From: Nitrospirota bacterium
GTDB taxonomy: Bacteria > Nitrospirota > Thermodesulfovibrionia > Thermodesulfovibrionales > Magnetobacteriaceae
Direction of reading: 5' to 3'
DNA length: 64,000 bases
NCBI GenBank assembly: GCA_015233015.1
Contig: JADFYO010000010.1
Location: 1-64,000, forward strand
Shown here: positions 24,150-31,659 of the stretch, one piece after another
Numbering within the stretch: the stretch's first letter is position 1
Layout: the number at the start of each line of letters is the position of its first letter
Notes under the pieces: model-generated
What the model was told of the DNA's origin: nothing
Databases searched by the model: none
The model's input: only the letters and a program-made list of their open reading frames with translations
Program-made: the position numbers and the translations under genes

Positions 24150-24170
24150 CCTGATACCAATCAAAGGAGT

Positions 24171-24233
24171 AATTCGGAGCATCCTTCGACAGGCTCAGGA
24201 TGATTCAATTGTTTTATGATGATTCGATTATTA
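24171..24233 (+). repeat. 62-bp repeat with REP-like core, left copy
   Basis: AATTCGGAGCATCCTTCGAC...GATGATTCGATTATT contains the 23-bp core CATCCTTCGACAGGCTCAGGATG (24180-24202). A near-identical 62-bp copy in the same orientation lies at 24738-24800, so the two bracket the GIY-YIG gene. Confidence 0.9.
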
Positions 24234-24300
24234 GAGGAATATCCCTTCTATGAACGAATACCCTTACTTCTATGAACGTATCTATGTACAAGAAGATTTC

Positions 24301-24349
24301 TATAACAATCAAATAAATCTATAACAATCAAATAAATCTATAACAATCA
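24301..24349 (+). repeat. Tandem 19-bp repeat, about 2.5 copies
   Basis: TATAACAATCAAATAAATC is repeated at 24301, 24320 and 24339 (last copy partial). It lies in the spacer between the left repeat and the inverted REP-like copy at 24403, a spacer made almost entirely of short low-complexity repeats. Confidence 0.85.
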
Positions 24350-24402
24350 ACTCACACTATGATAATCGAAGAACTCTATAATAATCGAAATAAAAATCGA
24401 AT

Positions 24403-24425
24403 CATCCTGAGCCTGTCGAAGGATG
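24403..24425 (-). repeat. REP-like 23-bp repeat, inverted copy beside GIY-YIG gene
   Basis: CATCCTGAGCCTGTCGAAGGATG, opposite in orientation to the copies at 24180 and 24747. It sits directly past the 3' end of the GIY-YIG gene. Confidence 0.9.
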
Positions 24426-24432
24426 CTCCTTA

Positions 24433-24723
24433 TTACTCCTTTGTCTTGAGCTTGGCATTAGAATATTCAACAAGTTTCTCCCATTCACCGCTAATCAATG
24501 CCTCTTTTTTCCTTCGTGACCAACCTTTTATCTGTCTTTCTCTCAAGGAAGCATCATGGGTTGTAGCCATTTCACAACAGTATTCCAGCTTCTCTGGCAA
24601 CCTTTTGGCTGTATATCCATCGTAACGGCCATCGTTATGCTCATAAAGCCGTTTTTCTAAATCCACAGTAGAACCAGTGTAATATGAGCCGTCCGAACAT
24701 TTTAAGACATAGACCCATGCCAT
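24433..24723 (-). CDS. GIY-YIG nuclease, Ssn/UPF0213-like
   Basis: Single-domain nuclease of 96 residues. It has WVYVLKCSDGSYYTGST (GIY-YIG motif, residues 3-19), an arginine in LEKRLYEHN, YTAKRLPEKLEYC and the closing LRERQIKGWSRRKKEALI with the metal-binding Glu. Small GIY-YIG proteins of this kind include the Ssn family, recently described as site-specific single-strand DNA nucleases that cut repeats dispersed around their own gene. Here the gene lies between inverted and direct copies of a 23-bp palindromic repeat. I chose ATG 24723; the frame stays open upstream into the repeat (MSKDAP...), a sign that the repeat abuts the gene. No good Shine-Dalgarno site. Target specificity is inference. 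Confidence 0.85.
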   Translation of the reverse strand: MAWVYVLKCSDGSYYTGSTVDLEKRLYEHNDGRYDGYTAKRLPEKLEYCCEMATTHDASLRERQIKGWSRRKKEALISGEWEKLVEYSNAKLKTKE

Positions 24724-24737
24724 GTTTTTAGGATAGC

Positions 24738-24800
24738 AATTCGGAGCATCCTTCGACAAGCTCAGGATGATTCGATTGTTATATGATGATTCGATTGTTC
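24738..24800 (+). repeat. 62-bp repeat with REP-like core, right copy
   Basis: Near-identical to 24171-24233, with core CATCCTTCGACAAGCTCAGGATG (one base changed, G to A). It overlaps the upstream region of the GIY-YIG gene and precedes the TPR gene promoter. Confidence 0.9.
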
Positions 24801-24881: not shown

Positions 24882-26192
24882 ATGCCCAAAAAAATAAAGA
24901 AGCCCCCCAAACCTAAAGATCGCTCTAAAGTATTACTATGGATTGTCGACAAAATTATTCTTATTGTTATAGCGATAGCTGCTGGTTATGCTGTTTATTA
25001 CTTTACGACACACAAAGAAGATGTTAGGAAACAAGAAGCACTCGTCGCTACAATTGAAAACGCTGAAAAGATTCAGGTGAATGATCCAAAAGCGGCTTTA
25101 GAAATATATAAAGATACCCTGAAATCATTATCCCCACAAAGCGACCCTCAACTCTTCGCCCGAGTAAAGCAGAACGAAGGTGACTGTTTATCTGATTTGT
25201 CGTTAGTCAATAACAGGGAAGATAATCTGAAAAACGCGATAATTGCATATGAAGCGGCGCTGGAAATAAGAACATTTAATAAATATCCTAATGAATATGC
25301 CTCTATTCACAATAATCTTGGAATTGCTTACAGAAACCTTTCAGAGGTGCGGGAAAAAGAGAAAAATGTAAAATATGCCATTAAGGAATATGAGGAGGCC
25401 CTTACAATATATACCATTGACAAATTTCCGATTGATTACGCACAGACTCAAAATAATCTTGGAAATGCTTACGGAAACCTTTCAGAGGTGCGGGATAAAG
25501 AGACAAATGTAACCCTTGCCATTAAAGCTTACGAGGAGGCCATTAAAATCAGAACCATTGACAAATTTCCGATTGATTACGCACAGACTCAAAATAATCT
25601 TGGAAATGCTTACGGAAACCTTTCACAGAAAAGGAATAAAGAGACAAACATAAAACTCGCCGTTAAGGCATACGAGGAGGCCCTTAAAATATATACCATT
25701 GACAAATTTCCTACTCAATATGCAGGGATCCAAAATAATCTTGGAGTTGCCTATTGGGAACTTTCAGAGGTGCGGGATAAAGAGACAAATGTAAACCTTG
25801 CCATTAAGGCATATGAGGAAGCCCTTAAAATCAGAACCATTGACAAATTTCCGATTGATTACGCACAGACTCAAAATAATCTTGGAAATGCTTACAGAAA
25901 CCTTTCACTGGCACGGGATAAAGAGACTAACGTAAAACTTGCCGTTAAGGCATACGAGGAGGCTCTTAAAATCAAAACCATTGACAAATTTCCTAATGAT
26001 TACGCACAGACTCAAAATAATCTTGGAGCTGCTTATAAGGAACTTTCACAGGTAAGGGATAAAGAGACAAATGTAAAACTTGCAGTTAAGGCATATGAGG
26101 AGGCATTGAAGATTTATACTCAAAAAGATTATCCCGATTCTTATGAACTTGTAATGAAAAACCTGAATAAGGCCAGGGAAATGCTGCGGTGA
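24882..26192 (+). CDS. Membrane-anchored TPR protein with near-identical repeats
   Basis: 436 residues. A lysine/proline-rich N-terminus is followed by one membrane helix (ILIVIAIAAGYAVYYF, about residues 27-45), and the rest is a tetratricopeptide solenoid. Seven units of about 47 residues run from residue 100 to the end, the middle five nearly identical (NNLGNAY-NLS-VRDKETNVKLA-KAYEEALKI-TIDKFP-DYAQTQ). At DNA level this is a 141-bp tandem array that can gain or lose units in frame. TPR arrays mediate protein-protein contacts; the partner is unknown. Good GATGGAGG site upstream. REP-like repeats lie on both sides. Confidence 0.88.
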   Translation: MPKKIKKPPKPKDRSKVLLWIVDKIILIVIAIAAGYAVYYFTTHKEDVRKQEALVATIENAEKIQVNDPKAALEIYKDTLKSLSPQSDPQLFARVKQNEGDCLSDLSLVNNREDNLKNAIIAYEAALEIRTFNKYPNEYASIHNNLGIAYRNLSEVREKEKNVKYAIKEYEEALTIYTIDKFPIDYAQTQNNLGNAYGNLSEVRDKETNVTLAIKAYEEAIKIRTIDKFPIDYAQTQNNLGNAYGNLSQKRNKETNIKLAVKAYEEALKIYTIDKFPTQYAGIQNNLGVAYWELSEVRDKETNVNLAIKAYEEALKIRTIDKFPIDYAQTQNNLGNAYRNLSLARDKETNVKLAVKAYEEALKIKTIDKFPNDYAQTQNNLGAAYKELSQVRDKETNVKLAVKAYEEALKIYTQKDYPDSYELVMKNLNKAREMLR

Positions 26193-26234
26193 GCGCGTCG
26201 TTATAGGAAGTTGCTGACAAATGAGTAGTCGGAG

Positions 26235-26344
26235 CATCCTTCGACAGGCTCAGGATGATTCTATTGGTAGGATGATTCTATCGTTAGATGATTCTATCGG
26301 TGGTATTTTGATCTCGGGAATCATCCTGAGCCTGTCGAAGGATG
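26235..26344. repeat. Inverted pair of REP-like repeats with tandem spacer
   Basis: CATCCTTCGACAGGCTCAGGATG (26235-26257) and its reverse complement (26322-26344) face each other. The spacer holds three imperfect copies of GATGATTCTATYG, 16-18 bp apart. It lies between the convergent TPR and archease genes and could also act as a bidirectional hairpin. Confidence 0.9.
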
Positions 26345-26770: not shown

Positions 26771-27021
26771 GCCTCAGTAAATTACCATTTCAGGCCGATT
26801 ACGTGCAACTCGCAGCTGCGGCTATGCGAATAGCTGGCCTCAGTCGTCAGGGCAATCGCATTTGAAAAATAAAGCAGAAGATACCGATGCAATCATTCCG
26901 GCTTGCAGACTGTGTCATAATTATTTTTATCCAATGCGGAACAAAGTTACGGATTCAGACCCGGAAGGTGTTGTAAGGATGCACTCATACGAGTGGATAT
27001 GATGCTTGGGACGGGCAGGCA
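26771..27021. other. Non-coding stretch upstream of RT debris
   Basis: No ORF, RNA gene or repeat recognised. The last 30 bp (GGATATGATGCTTGGGACGG onward) may still belong to the reverse transcriptase remnant that follows. Confidence 0.4.
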
Positions 27022-27288
27022 ATGGGTAATGCCGATATCAGGAGCTACTTTGTGAGCATACCTCACGACAGGTTGATGGAGGACATCAAAGAGCAAGTGG
27101 CGGATGGACGGGTAGTGAAACTGATAGAAGGCTATCTGAAGCAGGGCGTAATGGATGGCCTCGACCTGTGGGAACATGAAAGAGTTACACCGCAGGTGTC
27201 AGTCCACTACTGGCTAATATCTATCTGAACAAAATCGACCATGCAATGAGCGGTTTAGGATACGAAATGGTAAGATACTCTGATGATT
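27022..27288 (+). pseudogene. Group II intron reverse transcriptase fragment 1
   Basis: Translation gives NADIRSYFVSIPHDRLMEDIKEQVADGRVVKLIEGYLKQGVMDGL, then after a one-base frame change PLLANIYLNKIDHAM and MVRYSDD. These are the RT motifs around the first catalytic Asp, the GxPQG/SPLLANIYL box and the YxDD box of group II intron-encoded proteins. Both ends are missing and the frame is broken, so it is a decayed remnant. Confidence 0.85.
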
Positions 27289-27373
27289 GTGCGCCACGAG
27301 GCTGCACAAAAGATGAGAGTAGGTCTCTCGGAGCCGGTTTTCAGGAACAGGCTTCAAACCACCTCAAGCGGCT

Positions 27374-27520
27374 GTAGTCAAAGGGTTCTTTGATAGCATT
27401 GACCATGAACTTATGATGCGAGCGGTGCATAAACGTGCCGAATCCAAGTGGATATTGCTGTGTGTTGAACGGTGGCTTAAAACACCGGTACAACTACCAG
27501 ATGATACAAAAACGACATAA
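27374..27520 (+). pseudogene. Group II intron reverse transcriptase fragment 2
   Basis: Frame 27374-27520 reads KGFFDSIDHELMMRAV and ESKWILLCVERWLKTPVQ, matching the same RT region as fragment 1 but clearly from a second, different copy. Between the two copies, directly after the YSDD codons, the sequence GTGCGCC at 27289 resembles a group II intron 5' end. Remnant only. Confidence 0.8.
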
Positions 27521-27813
27521 ATAAGTTTGAAGATATAAGGATTGCAGTCGTCTCGCCTTACGAATTGCTTTTAAAGGAACTTTTAAGCCTATGAGATACA
27601 AAACATGACGGCCATGATGGGGAACTTGAGACATCTATGTTGCTTGTCATGTCCCCAAGCCTCGTGAAGAAAAACATTTGGCGCAAGCAACTACCATTAT
27701 GGAAAAATGTTCTTGACTTTTTGGGTAGCATTTCGCTATGCTATATAGGTAATTTATTTAAGAGTATCGGATTGTTGGTATGCTGAAGAGGTGGATATAA
27801 TGCATCTGATGGA
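27521..27813. other. Leader region before the antiterminator gene
   Basis: No coding sequence found. It contains the promoter-like site at 27713-27742 and, near 27788, AAGAGGTGG before an ATG in a frame that does not match the downstream family. Confidence 0.45.
27713..27742 (+). promoter_or_regulatory. Possible promoter of the glycan cluster
   Basis: TTGACT (27713-27718), 18-bp spacer, TATGCT (27737-27742), followed by ATATAGG. It precedes the NusG-like gene by about 70 bp. Confidence 0.45.
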
Positions 27814-28325
27814 GTGGACCTTCTATGGAATTGTGTTTATGTCATGCCAAATCGCGAATTCAAGGTTAGGGAGAGATTGTTAAGAGCTAAAATAGAGGCG
27901 TTCCTGTCGACTGCAATAAAGTTAAGCAGATGGAAGGACGGGGAAAAACTGATGGAGTTTCCTCTCTCCCCGTATTATTTGTTTGTACGGATAAGAGCCA
28001 ATTCAGAGGATAAAGGCTTTGTGTTGCGAACGCCGGGAGTTATACGCTTCGTAGGTGCGAAAAATAGCAACGGGTATGGTTATGAATCCGTACCGCATCG
28101 GCAGATAACCTATCTGAAGATAATATCAGAAAGTAAGGAAGCAGTAAATTCCTATCCTTTTATGATCGAAGGGCAAAAGGTAAGGGTAACGAAGGGGCCT
28201 TTTGTCGGAGTCGATGGTCTCCTTAATTAAGGAAAAAGGTTTGCACAAGCTGGTTTTTTTTTATTGATATGTTACGGCAGGGAGTGTCTGTCGAAATAGA
28301 CGCTTCCGACGTAGAATCTATTTAG
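27814..28325 (+). pseudogene. NusG/UpxY-type transcription antiterminator, frameshifted
   Basis: The open part (138 residues from GTG 27814) is the NGN domain of specialised NusG paralogues: LWNCVYVMPNREFKVRERL, LSPYYLFVRI, TPGVIRFVGA, then the KOW start GQKVRVTKGPFVGVDGLL. It stops at TAA, but the KOW domain continues in other frames: IKEKGLHKLVFF, then after a T9 run IDMLRQGVSVEIDASDVESI to the stop at 28325. Two single-base insertions explain both shifts. Such proteins (RfaH, UpxY, LoaP) bind paused RNA polymerase and keep long polysaccharide operons transcribed, matching its position at the head of the glycan cluster. Slippage at the T9 tract or sequencing error are alternatives for the second shift. 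Confidence 0.8.
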
Positions 28326-28505
28326 CGTTTAGTTAGAGTTCAGGGAAGATATTTGCCTTGAGTCTGTAACATGATGTTTTACTTACATTTTCTGGGCGGG
28401 ATATGTAAGTGACAGCGGTGGAGCTATGTGCATCATAGCCTGAACGCAGCGCCTGTCCCCTTCTATGACAGAGAGAAATACAGAGAGAAATAGAGAAATA
28501 TAGAT

Positions 28506-29783
28506 ATGTCTTTACTTAAAAGCAGCTCGTTGATTTTCGCAGGCTTGATGATTGGAAGTATAGCTAATTACCTGTTTCAGGTTACCATGGGGCGGATTCT
28601 TACTGTTACGATGTACGGAGAGCTAAACGCCCTTTTTTCCATCACTGCGATTTTTGGCGTACCGTTTGCGAGCCTGACCACCTATTTGGCAAAGAGCATA
28701 TCCCACGACCATGCTATCGGCAGGAACGATAGCATAAAATTGGTCATTAAGAAGGCATACAAATCTATTGGTATAGCTATCGTTGTTATATTTCTCATAG
28801 GAGGTCTTTTCTCCGGCTTTACAAGCGAACGGCTGAAGATGGATAGTATAATTCCAGTTTTGCTGCTTTTTTTGTATATAGGCATATCCACTGTAACTCC
28901 GGTTAATATGGGCATATTACAGGGATTGCATAACTTTAGGATGATTTCATTCTTGTCCGCCGGAGGGGGCGTTTTAAAATATCTGTTCGGAGTTGCCCTT
29001 GTTGCCCTCGGCCTCGGGCTAAATGGAGTCATGGCAGGGATGATTATTGCCGGTATATTAGTGGGCTATTTATCATTTATTCCTATAAAAAAAGAGATGA
29101 AGCCCCCTGATGGCCCGGCTATGATTAATGACGATAATAACAGCACCCCGCTGTCTTTCTTTATTCCGGTTATTGTTGCGAATTTGGCCTTTGCCGTTTT
29201 GACGCAGTCTGATATTATAATGGTTAAGTATTTTTTCTCACCGGAAGACGCCGGCTTCTACAGTTCTGCAGCTGTTATTGGCAAGACGGTGATGTATATT
29301 CCGGGGGCGATAGTGTTGGCTCTTTTCCCTTCGGTCGCATCCAGTAAGGCGAGGGAGGAAGGCACCATGAACCTGATTCTTAAAGCGCTTGCGCTTACTG
29401 TGCTGATGTCTGGTGGAGGCGCTTTAGTTCTCTACTTTTTCCCGGGGCAGGTAATATCGGTATTTTTTGGAGGGAAGTTCGCTCAGGCAGCTCATCTGAT
29501 AGGACTTTTCGCAATAGTGATGCTTCCTATGGCATTTATAATGGTACTGATGAATTACAACCTTGCGAGGGGCAGCTGCATGTTTGTCTATATTATGATT
29601 TTTTGCTCGCTTTTTCAAGTTGCGGGGATTTCTGTTTATCACAACAGCCTCAAATCAGTCCTTAGAGTAATATTGCTTTCAGGGAGTCTTTGCGGTTTAC
29701 TAATGTTTATCGCGTTAGGGATTGAATACTTTGGATTTGGGGCTATGTTAAATAGTTATCGTAAAACTCAGGCGGTACATTGA
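28506..29783 (+). CDS. Polysaccharide flippase (Wzx/MurJ-like superfamily)
   Basis: Integral membrane protein of 425 residues with about 12 to 14 predicted helices, expected to flip lipid-linked glycan across the inner membrane. It begins SSSLIFAGLMIGSIANYLFQVTMGRILTVTMYGELNALFS, the typical first-helix pattern of the polysaccharide biosynthesis/flippase family, and contains SDIIMVKYFFSPEDAGFYSSAAVIGK mid-protein, another hallmark. Ribosome binding site is weak (GAGAAATATAG). First intact gene of the cluster. Confidence 0.88.
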   Translation: MSLLKSSSLIFAGLMIGSIANYLFQVTMGRILTVTMYGELNALFSITAIFGVPFASLTTYLAKSISHDHAIGRNDSIKLVIKKAYKSIGIAIVVIFLIGGLFSGFTSERLKMDSIIPVLLLFLYIGISTVTPVNMGILQGLHNFRMISFLSAGGGVLKYLFGVALVALGLGLNGVMAGMIIAGILVGYLSFIPIKKEMKPPDGPAMINDDNNSTPLSFFIPVIVANLAFAVLTQSDIIMVKYFFSPEDAGFYSSAAVIGKTVMYIPGAIVLALFPSVASSKAREEGTMNLILKALALTVLMSGGGALVLYFFPGQVISVFFGGKFAQAAHLIGLFAIVMLPMAFIMVLMNYNLARGSCMFVYIMIFCSLFQVAGISVYHNSLKSVLRVILLSGSLCGLLMFIALGIEYFGFGAMLNSYRKTQAVH

Positions 29784-29818: not shown

Positions 29819-30085
29819 ATGCGGCAATATCTTATGAAGCTGATATCCATAGTCGTTCCTTTGTACTGTGAAGAAATAAATATAGCTATGATGTTAATGA
29901 CATATCTTTTTTATAAACCGGGATTTTTCTATCCTATGACGATGATACTGGTAAGTAATACGTTTCTTATCGTAATAGCGCCAATATGCCTTGGTTTTAT
30001 AGCCTTATACATAGGTAATATCCAATCTGAGGTTACTAAAAGGCCTTTGTATAGAGTTAAAGACCGGATTATTTTGATGAATTAA
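29819..30085 (+). pseudogene. Internally deleted GT2 glycosyltransferase remnant
   Basis: The 88-codon frame joins the first 17 residues of a family 2 glycosyltransferase (MKLISIVVPLYCEEINI) directly to the C-terminal membrane part (FFYPMTMILVSNTFLIVIAPICLGFIALYIGNI..EVTKRPLYRVKDRI) of the dolichyl-phosphate-type GT2 group. About 230 residues containing all catalytic motifs are missing, the rest staying in frame. Compare the intact relative at 36133. Function lost. Confidence 0.7.
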
Positions 30086-30878: not shown

Positions 30879-31090
30879 AATTGGACTTCATATTATTCAA
30901 GATAGCAGGTGTGGAGTTTTGGAAATGGGTTAGAGCTGTGAGTTAAATGATCATATTATTCGGAGCAAAAAATATAGAGGATGTCCATGCCCTATATGCA
31001 TTGATCTTCAGAGGGCATTGACATCTCGACCACTCATAAAAAGCAAGGAGAACAAAGCGATACCATTAAACACCTATAAGGCGTTTCGAG

Positions 31091-31336
31091 ATGGCAAGTC
31101 TCTTTAGAAAGACGCTTTCGACAACTAATCCCATAGAGTCCTGTTTTTCAGTAACCAGGACAGTAACCTTTAGAGTGAAGCGCTGGAGGGAAGTTGACAT
31201 GAGACAAAGGTGGGCGGCCGCAGCGCTGCTGTGTGTCGGGAAGAAATTTAAACGGATTAAGGGTTACAAAGATATTTCAAAACTCGTAGCTGCTTCGCAG
31301 CAAAAAACACTTGACAAGAAGGAGGTTGCTGCGTAA
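31091..31336 (+). pseudogene. IS256-family transposase C-terminal fragment
   Basis: The frame encodes LFRKTLSTTNPIESCFSVTRTVTFRVKRWREVDMRQRWAAAALLCVGKKFKRIKGYKDISKLVAA, the conserved C-terminal end of IS256-type (Mutator) DDE transposases including the TTN-IE-E/S region. The N-terminal three quarters, with the first catalytic Asp residues, is missing. Flanking DNA from 30879 to 31659 shows no other gene, only likely IS debris such as CCAGGACAAAACC near 31586. Confidence 0.85.
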
Positions 31337-31659
31337 AATATGCGTACTGAAGGCATTCCTGCTTCAATGGAAATCGGGATAACCTCTCGTCGAGGGATAA
31401 CCTGTTGGGACTAATCAGACGGTTAGAAGGGAGTGGGCGAAAGTTTACGCCCTACAAAAACCTTAACCGGATGAAAGGTCTCTGATGCCTTAAAAACTCA
31501 TGCTTTTAGGTATGGATGCTTCTGAGCATAACTGCTCTCGCAGTATCTTAAAATGTGAATCGGATTTGTCCAATTCACGCTGAACCAGGACAAAACCACG
31601 ATTGCAGATAAGGGTCCACTATACAGATAGGTCCCGCGCAGAACTGATTGGAGGTCACA
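31337..31659. other. Non-coding IS-derived stretch
   Basis: About 320 bp after the transposase fragment with no ORF of interest. I could not identify clear terminal inverted repeats. A GGAGG site at its end belongs to the next gene. Confidence 0.4.

Follow-up and report, generated by a model that had tools for sequence, protein, structure and literature searches.

Is the specialised NusG gene at the head of a glycan gene cluster in a Nitrospirota genome still a working regulator, and, if it is not, to what kind of system did it belong? UpxY/RfaH-type factors normally aid RNA polymerase on its way through long surface-sugar operons, and the gene in question has the marks of this group. It lies in the window, the 64,000-nt stretch of DNA that was analysed, on contig C11 of a draft genome (3.78 Mb, 149 contigs, 99.23% complete). 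A sequence-only reading had already placed a specialised NusG at 27814-28325, and the profile searches agree: the PF02357 match scores 50.5 bits, and NF033644 (UpxY) scores 86.7 bits for the open frame alone and 100.9 bits for the frames fused by placing X across the two lesions, against a family cut-off of 100. The gene differs from RfaH in that its score for the equivalog TIGR01955 (44.2 bits, 57 with the frames joined) is far under the cut-off of 144.5, and from LoaP in that it reaches only 39.7 bits for a cut-off of 125. Downstream of it are a flippase, glycosyltransferases and methyltransferases, the context of a surface polysaccharide cluster. Two further NusG proteins are encoded in the source genome: the one on contig C83, which scores better than the product of the window gene, is presumably the housekeeping NusG, and the one on contig C72 (locus L034) is an intact UpxY-type paralogue, 64% identical to the window copy. 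What follows leads us to regard the locus as probably a dead regulatory unit, in which a leader and an UpxY-type NusG gene were followed, some 60-100 nt after the gene, by an ops-like element for recruitment.

A complete NGN plus KOW architecture in one frame is not found in the window gene. The open frame (27814-28230, +; ORF and profile matches) has 138 codons for amino acids and covers the NGN domain and the first part of KOW. It ends within KOW at a TAA (28228-28230), which is generated by one extra A in CTTAATTAAGG (28222-28232, +). The second lesion is the T9 tract (28254-28262, +), which has one base beyond the need of the reading frame. The premature TAA sits 23 nt before this tract, so that translation in the NGN frame ends without reaching T9. 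The remainder of KOW (28254-28325, +), ending in DMLRQGVSVEIDASDVESI and a stop, lies untranslated in the third frame, with 87% identity to the masked query, and its end can be reached only via two separate +1 events. The sequence-only reading had stated that KOW needs two single-base corrections, one of them at T9, and had proposed a comparison with relatives; in the alignment with the three nearest ones (the C72 paralogue and the genes G005:C44 and G005:C76 of the genus-mate Candidatus Magnetominusculus sp. LBB02, magnetotactic Nitrospirota), neither insertion is found, which bears that statement out. In addition, the start codon looks lost in an alignment of few sequences: the ancestral position (27796-27798, +), where the sister copy has ATG, reads TAT after a 1-nt deletion, and an out-of-frame ATG at 27801 now lies 3′ of a Shine-Dalgarno-like GAGGTGG.

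The substitutions in the gene were then considered by codon position, counting the changes unique to one copy at the sites where the other three sequences agree. The window copy has 9, 7, and 6 such changes at positions 1, 2, and 3 (of 107, 112, and 64 sites), while the intact C72 copy has 6, 2, and 11 (of 104, 107, and 69 sites). The changes specific to the window copy are found at 19 of 190 sites in NGN and at 3 of 93 in KOW; that NGN changed more than KOW is the opposite of what is predicted for a maintained NGN-only protein. Within NGN, the replacements P38S, R49G, and F58S affect columns that are conserved in 27-28 of 28 homologues. Taken alone, these losses are suggestive, since the intact divergent homologue L015 deviates equally often. 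The earlier statement that the NGN domain is intact thus holds insofar as the PF02357 match survives, and fails with respect to these three residues and the deletion at the start site. The closest relative at the DNA level, G005:C76 of LBB02 (blastn, 76.6% identity over 740 columns), is itself broken: its matched frame is interrupted by one TGA and two TAA codons. These lesions are different ones; the two species thus each keep one intact upxY and have lost the other independently. With lesions in start and frame, a codon pattern of the neutral kind, lost near-invariant residues, and a sister copy that died independently, the window upxY is, judged from its sequence, really broken and a pseudogene, in agreement with the dead regulator that the sequence-only reading had listed among its options.

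Several readings would spare the gene. It might be intact in the organism, both indels being assembly or sequencing artefacts; one lesion does fall in the T9 homopolymer and the genome is a draft of many contigs, but the CTTAATTAAGG lesion lies outside any homopolymer, the start codon is damaged too, and the neutral substitutions and near-invariant losses cannot come from errors at two bases. Since, moreover, the adjoining DNA is likewise decayed, the sister copy is dead in another species, and most large ORFs of the window are open, we consider this explanation improbable. Even less credit can be given to the idea of a deliberate NGN-only factor, in which loss of KOW would free NGN to become a constitutive elongation factor under selection. 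In RfaH, the site by which NGN binds the polymerase is hidden by the KOW domain (PMC6370827, PMC11001881), from which it follows that removal of KOW could leave an active NGN, and the 138-aa frame with its PF02357 match persists. Against this stand the lost start codon, the Shine-Dalgarno-like sequence placed for the out-of-frame ATG, the excess of changes in NGN over KOW, and the three residue losses; a selected NGN-only form was rejected on the codon-position counts and the lost residues. An NGN-only form had been offered earlier as one outcome; it is possible as a product, and there is no sign of selection for it in the NGN and KOW counts. The least probable reading, to a degree that it hardly deserves consideration, is that programmed frameshifting or transcript slippage yields the full-length protein. 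The T9 tract that invites it is present in the window gene, but lies 3′ of the stop; a full-length product would take two separate +1 events, and neither site occurs in the three relatives. The proposal that slippage at T9 partly restores the regulator was rejected for the reason that translation has already stopped before the tract.

The decay extends beyond the gene. Upstream, remnants of the reverse transcriptase of a group II intron are spread over several frames (26850-27520, +); the sequence search against PDB matched group II intron reverse transcriptases (E 3e-12 to 5e-12), and Rfam RF01999 (group-II-D1D4-2) matched at 27315-27449 (E 5.6e-8). The unit shared with LBB02 contig C76, as delimited by blastn, runs from 27701 to 28435 (+) and consists of the leader, upxY, and the downstream element; no synteny with that contig was seen beyond it. 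The first intact gene of the cluster is a polysaccharide flippase (28506-29783, +; PF01943, E 1.6e-12). It is followed by a glycosyltransferase relic (29819-30085, +) in which both ends are kept and the middle is deleted, as found by comparison with L034:10695-11633 (72% over 61 aa and 80% over 20 aa). A full-length glycosyltransferase gene comes after the intact upxY in C72. With the reverse transcriptase relic, the internally deleted glycosyltransferase, and the degenerate regulatory element, this patch is a mobile-element-rich graveyard of a formerly larger unit.

What kind of unit it was can be seen from its living relatives. When the DNA after the stop codons was compared, a near-identical block was found 3′ of upxY in most relatives. 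This element consists of a hairpin and then GCGGAGCAKTG, usually about 50-150 nt downstream of the UpxY-type gene, and it apparently has not been described so far beside intact UpxY-type genes across Nitrospirota. A sequence-only model (R1) was built from 22 copies and used to survey the 129 genomes of the order that are at least 90% complete, with acceptance at E ≤ 1e-3. The survey gave 92 copies in 64 genomes, and UpxY above the family cut-off in 62: 56 genomes have both, 6 have only UpxY, 8 have only the element, and 59 have neither. Among the 76 genomes outside the training set, the corresponding numbers are 36, 3, 6, and 31, so that the element occurs in 36 of 39 genomes with UpxY and in 6 of 37 without it (Fisher p 7e-12, a value that overstates independence because genomes share ancestry). 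The loci of the model had been found via UpxY, a bias that this out-of-sample test and the copies far from UpxY offset only partly.

The position of the element is also constrained. Forty-eight of the 68 UpxY genes above the family cut-off have an element within 1.2 kb; the 49 elements lying this near are all on the same strand as the gene, and 45 of them are downstream, the median distance from the end of the profile match being 91 nt. A further 43 copies are farther from any UpxY above the cut-off or on other contigs, many of them directly ahead of exopolysaccharide genes. Among the first downstream proteins of the far copies (38 scanned), many fall into families of sugar-nucleotide or exopolysaccharide metabolism: NTP_transferase was found 7 times, GDP_Man_Dehyd and Epimerase 5 times each, and PrsT and Poly_export 4 times each, raw counts that overlap between families. 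The genes after these copies include those for GDP-mannose dehydratase, glucose-1-phosphate cytidylyltransferase, UDP-glucose dehydrogenase, PrsT, and polysaccharide export, and also, as named by eye from N-terminal sequences, chain-length and mannose-1-phosphate guanylyltransferase-like genes; some far copies have no evident glycan link. The element is present in further classes of the phylum Nitrospirota. The link with UpxY is not absolute: the intact genes G000:C72 (L034) and G005:C44 (L036) lack a clear element, and as none is recognisable beside either of them, their UpxY may rely on an altered site or on no site at all. At another locus, L073, one upxY has the element both upstream and downstream (G041:C2:848-877 and 1463-1492).

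In the hairpin, the 3′ arm TGTAACYGAGARGGC pairs with the upstream GCCTTCTCRGTTACA. For 67 copies, pairing with the own 5′ arm gives -13.6 kcal/mol, as against -7.7 when the upstream DNA is shuffled (p 3e-11) and -12.1 when it is swapped (p 0.007); the latter is a modest signal of covariation. The core consensus is GGCGGAGCAKTG. Its heptamer GCGGAGC, which is able to form GC-GGA-GC, is invariant in 22 of the 22 model sequences; the later copy count required it in each copy and is therefore no test of this invariance. From the end of the hairpin to the presumed pause site it is about 10 nt, a spacing like that in hairpin-stabilised pauses. JUMPstart RNA (RF01707) and EAR (RF01735) are leader elements of polysaccharide operons that are linked to antitermination. 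The element differs from these in that no Rfam family matched at any of its positions in searches with limits of E 5 and E 2, and a riboswitch or other known RNA was accordingly discarded as a candidate.

The nearest parallel is RfaH with ops, which likewise joins a specialised NusG to a short element in glycan-operon leaders. In E. coli ops, the loop G4-A7, which RfaH contacts, is closed by C3:G8, and T6 is flipped into RfaH (PMC5995543). The ops core GGCGGTAGYNTG, with T6, is not what the Nitrospirota consensus contains: the loop is GGA in place of GGTA, that is, one base shorter and without the flipped-out T6, and a long hairpin directly precedes the core. Both elements nevertheless appear to set GC-loop-GC within a pause skeleton of the form G-11 G-10 ... 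T-1 G+1. The element is thus not ops by sequence; from the shared frame and the GG...TG skeleton, we infer that it may work like ops as a docking site. LoaP of Bacillus is a NusG paralogue that requires a hairpin in the dfn leader for antitermination (PMC12691694). The combination of paralogue and leader hairpin is similar, but the dfn hairpin is small and of the UNCG type, whereas that of Nitrospirota is long, its loop varies, and its 3′ core is invariant. The genes for Bacteroides UpxY antiterminators lie within surface polysaccharide operons or at their head (PMC7593976, PMC7819879), and the window gene, though broken, resembles them in NGN plus KOW architecture and operon context; its NF033644 score falls below or just above the family cut-off according to whether the frames are joined. 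No upxZ came to notice near it. In B. fragilis, the leader acted on is upstream of upxY (PMC7819879), whereas the Nitrospirota element is usually downstream, with some copies upstream.

These comparisons suggest how a living copy would operate. The polymerase would transcribe upxY and then meet the hairpin and the consensus-pause-like GGCGGAGCAKTG, where it may pause; UpxY would dock at the pause on the exposed hairpin or the non-template strand and, acting as an antiterminator like RfaH recruited at ops, stay on the polymerase while the glycan operon is transcribed. Where copies stand before other exopolysaccharide operons, UpxY would act on them in trans. The element could instead be a leader RNA in its own right, such as an attenuator or an RNA that binds a ligand or a protein, and do no more than occur in the same glycan operons as UpxY. 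Its strong RNA hairpin fits this, as does its presence in 8 of the 67 genomes without UpxY above the cut-off, though some of those 8 have lower-scoring UpxY-like genes. The tight one-sided position just after UpxY, the strong co-occurrence at the genome level, the pause-like skeleton and loop near those of ops, and the missing Rfam match speak against it, and we hold it to be a possible but rather doubtful account. A docking site of UpxY-type factors is what the element probably is. We lean, with some reserve, toward an RfaH/ops-like regulon of Nitrospirota's own, in which GCCTTCTCRGTTACA-loop-TGTAACYGAGARGGC followed by GGAGCAKTG would recruit UpxY in cis and in trans for phylum-wide control of exopolysaccharide operons, the window being one unit that is dying.

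In the window itself, a hairpin of 8 bp is formed by ACTTACAT (28381-28388) and ATGTAAGT (28403-28410) at 28381-28410 (+); one position that is invariant elsewhere has changed from C to G, and the 5′ arm matches this change. The decayed core GGTGGAGCTATG (28417-28428, +) is found after the gene, at the conserved position. For this copy, model R1 gives 2.9 bits, 0.2 for the sequence beside C72, and 9.7 for the LBB02 copy, while accepted copies score about 20.6-37.3, and a genome scan found no near-consensus copy in the source genome. Since the window element is so decayed, trans action here by the intact C72 paralogue cannot be assumed. With a gene that lacks its start, frame, and KOW end, and with a decayed element, the unit would be non-functional in the source genome, any product being a 138-aa NGN-only fragment, and the system appears to be fading in this lineage. 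The best reading of the window is a relic of an RfaH/ops-like system that is otherwise alive across Nitrospirota.

By itself, the pseudogene is ordinary; the part of interest is the element beside its living relatives. In the literature searched, ops is described for RfaH and a hairpin for LoaP, and no recruitment site is named for UpxY. The route by which UpxY-type factors reach their operons therefore appears undescribed, and the element offers a candidate for it. Being conserved, placed, and countable in a phylum with cultured members, it is directly testable, and if the reading is true, ops-like sites would extend beyond Proteobacteria, here with an altered loop.

Some minor features of the window were also recorded. 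Scans for promoters and terminators gave little above chance. A possible relic of an IS256-type transposase C-terminus lies at 30900-31400, with a TTNPIES motif read by eye; Pfam gave no match for it or for the short intron reverse transcriptase relics. A REP-like dispersed palindromic repeat, CATCCTTCGACAGGCTCAGGATGATTC, occurs in both orientations at 24168-24443, 24735-24799, and 26231-26344, where at least 5 copies surround genes for a GIY-YIG protein and an archease. Five 141-nt tandem repeats, 76-80% alike, are found within a TPR protein (25230-26093). The cluster at 31648-53055 encodes B12-binding radical SAM proteins (at 31648, 37134, 46847, and 51496), together with methyltransferases and a two-gene transketolase, a content that is unusual for a plain capsule cluster.
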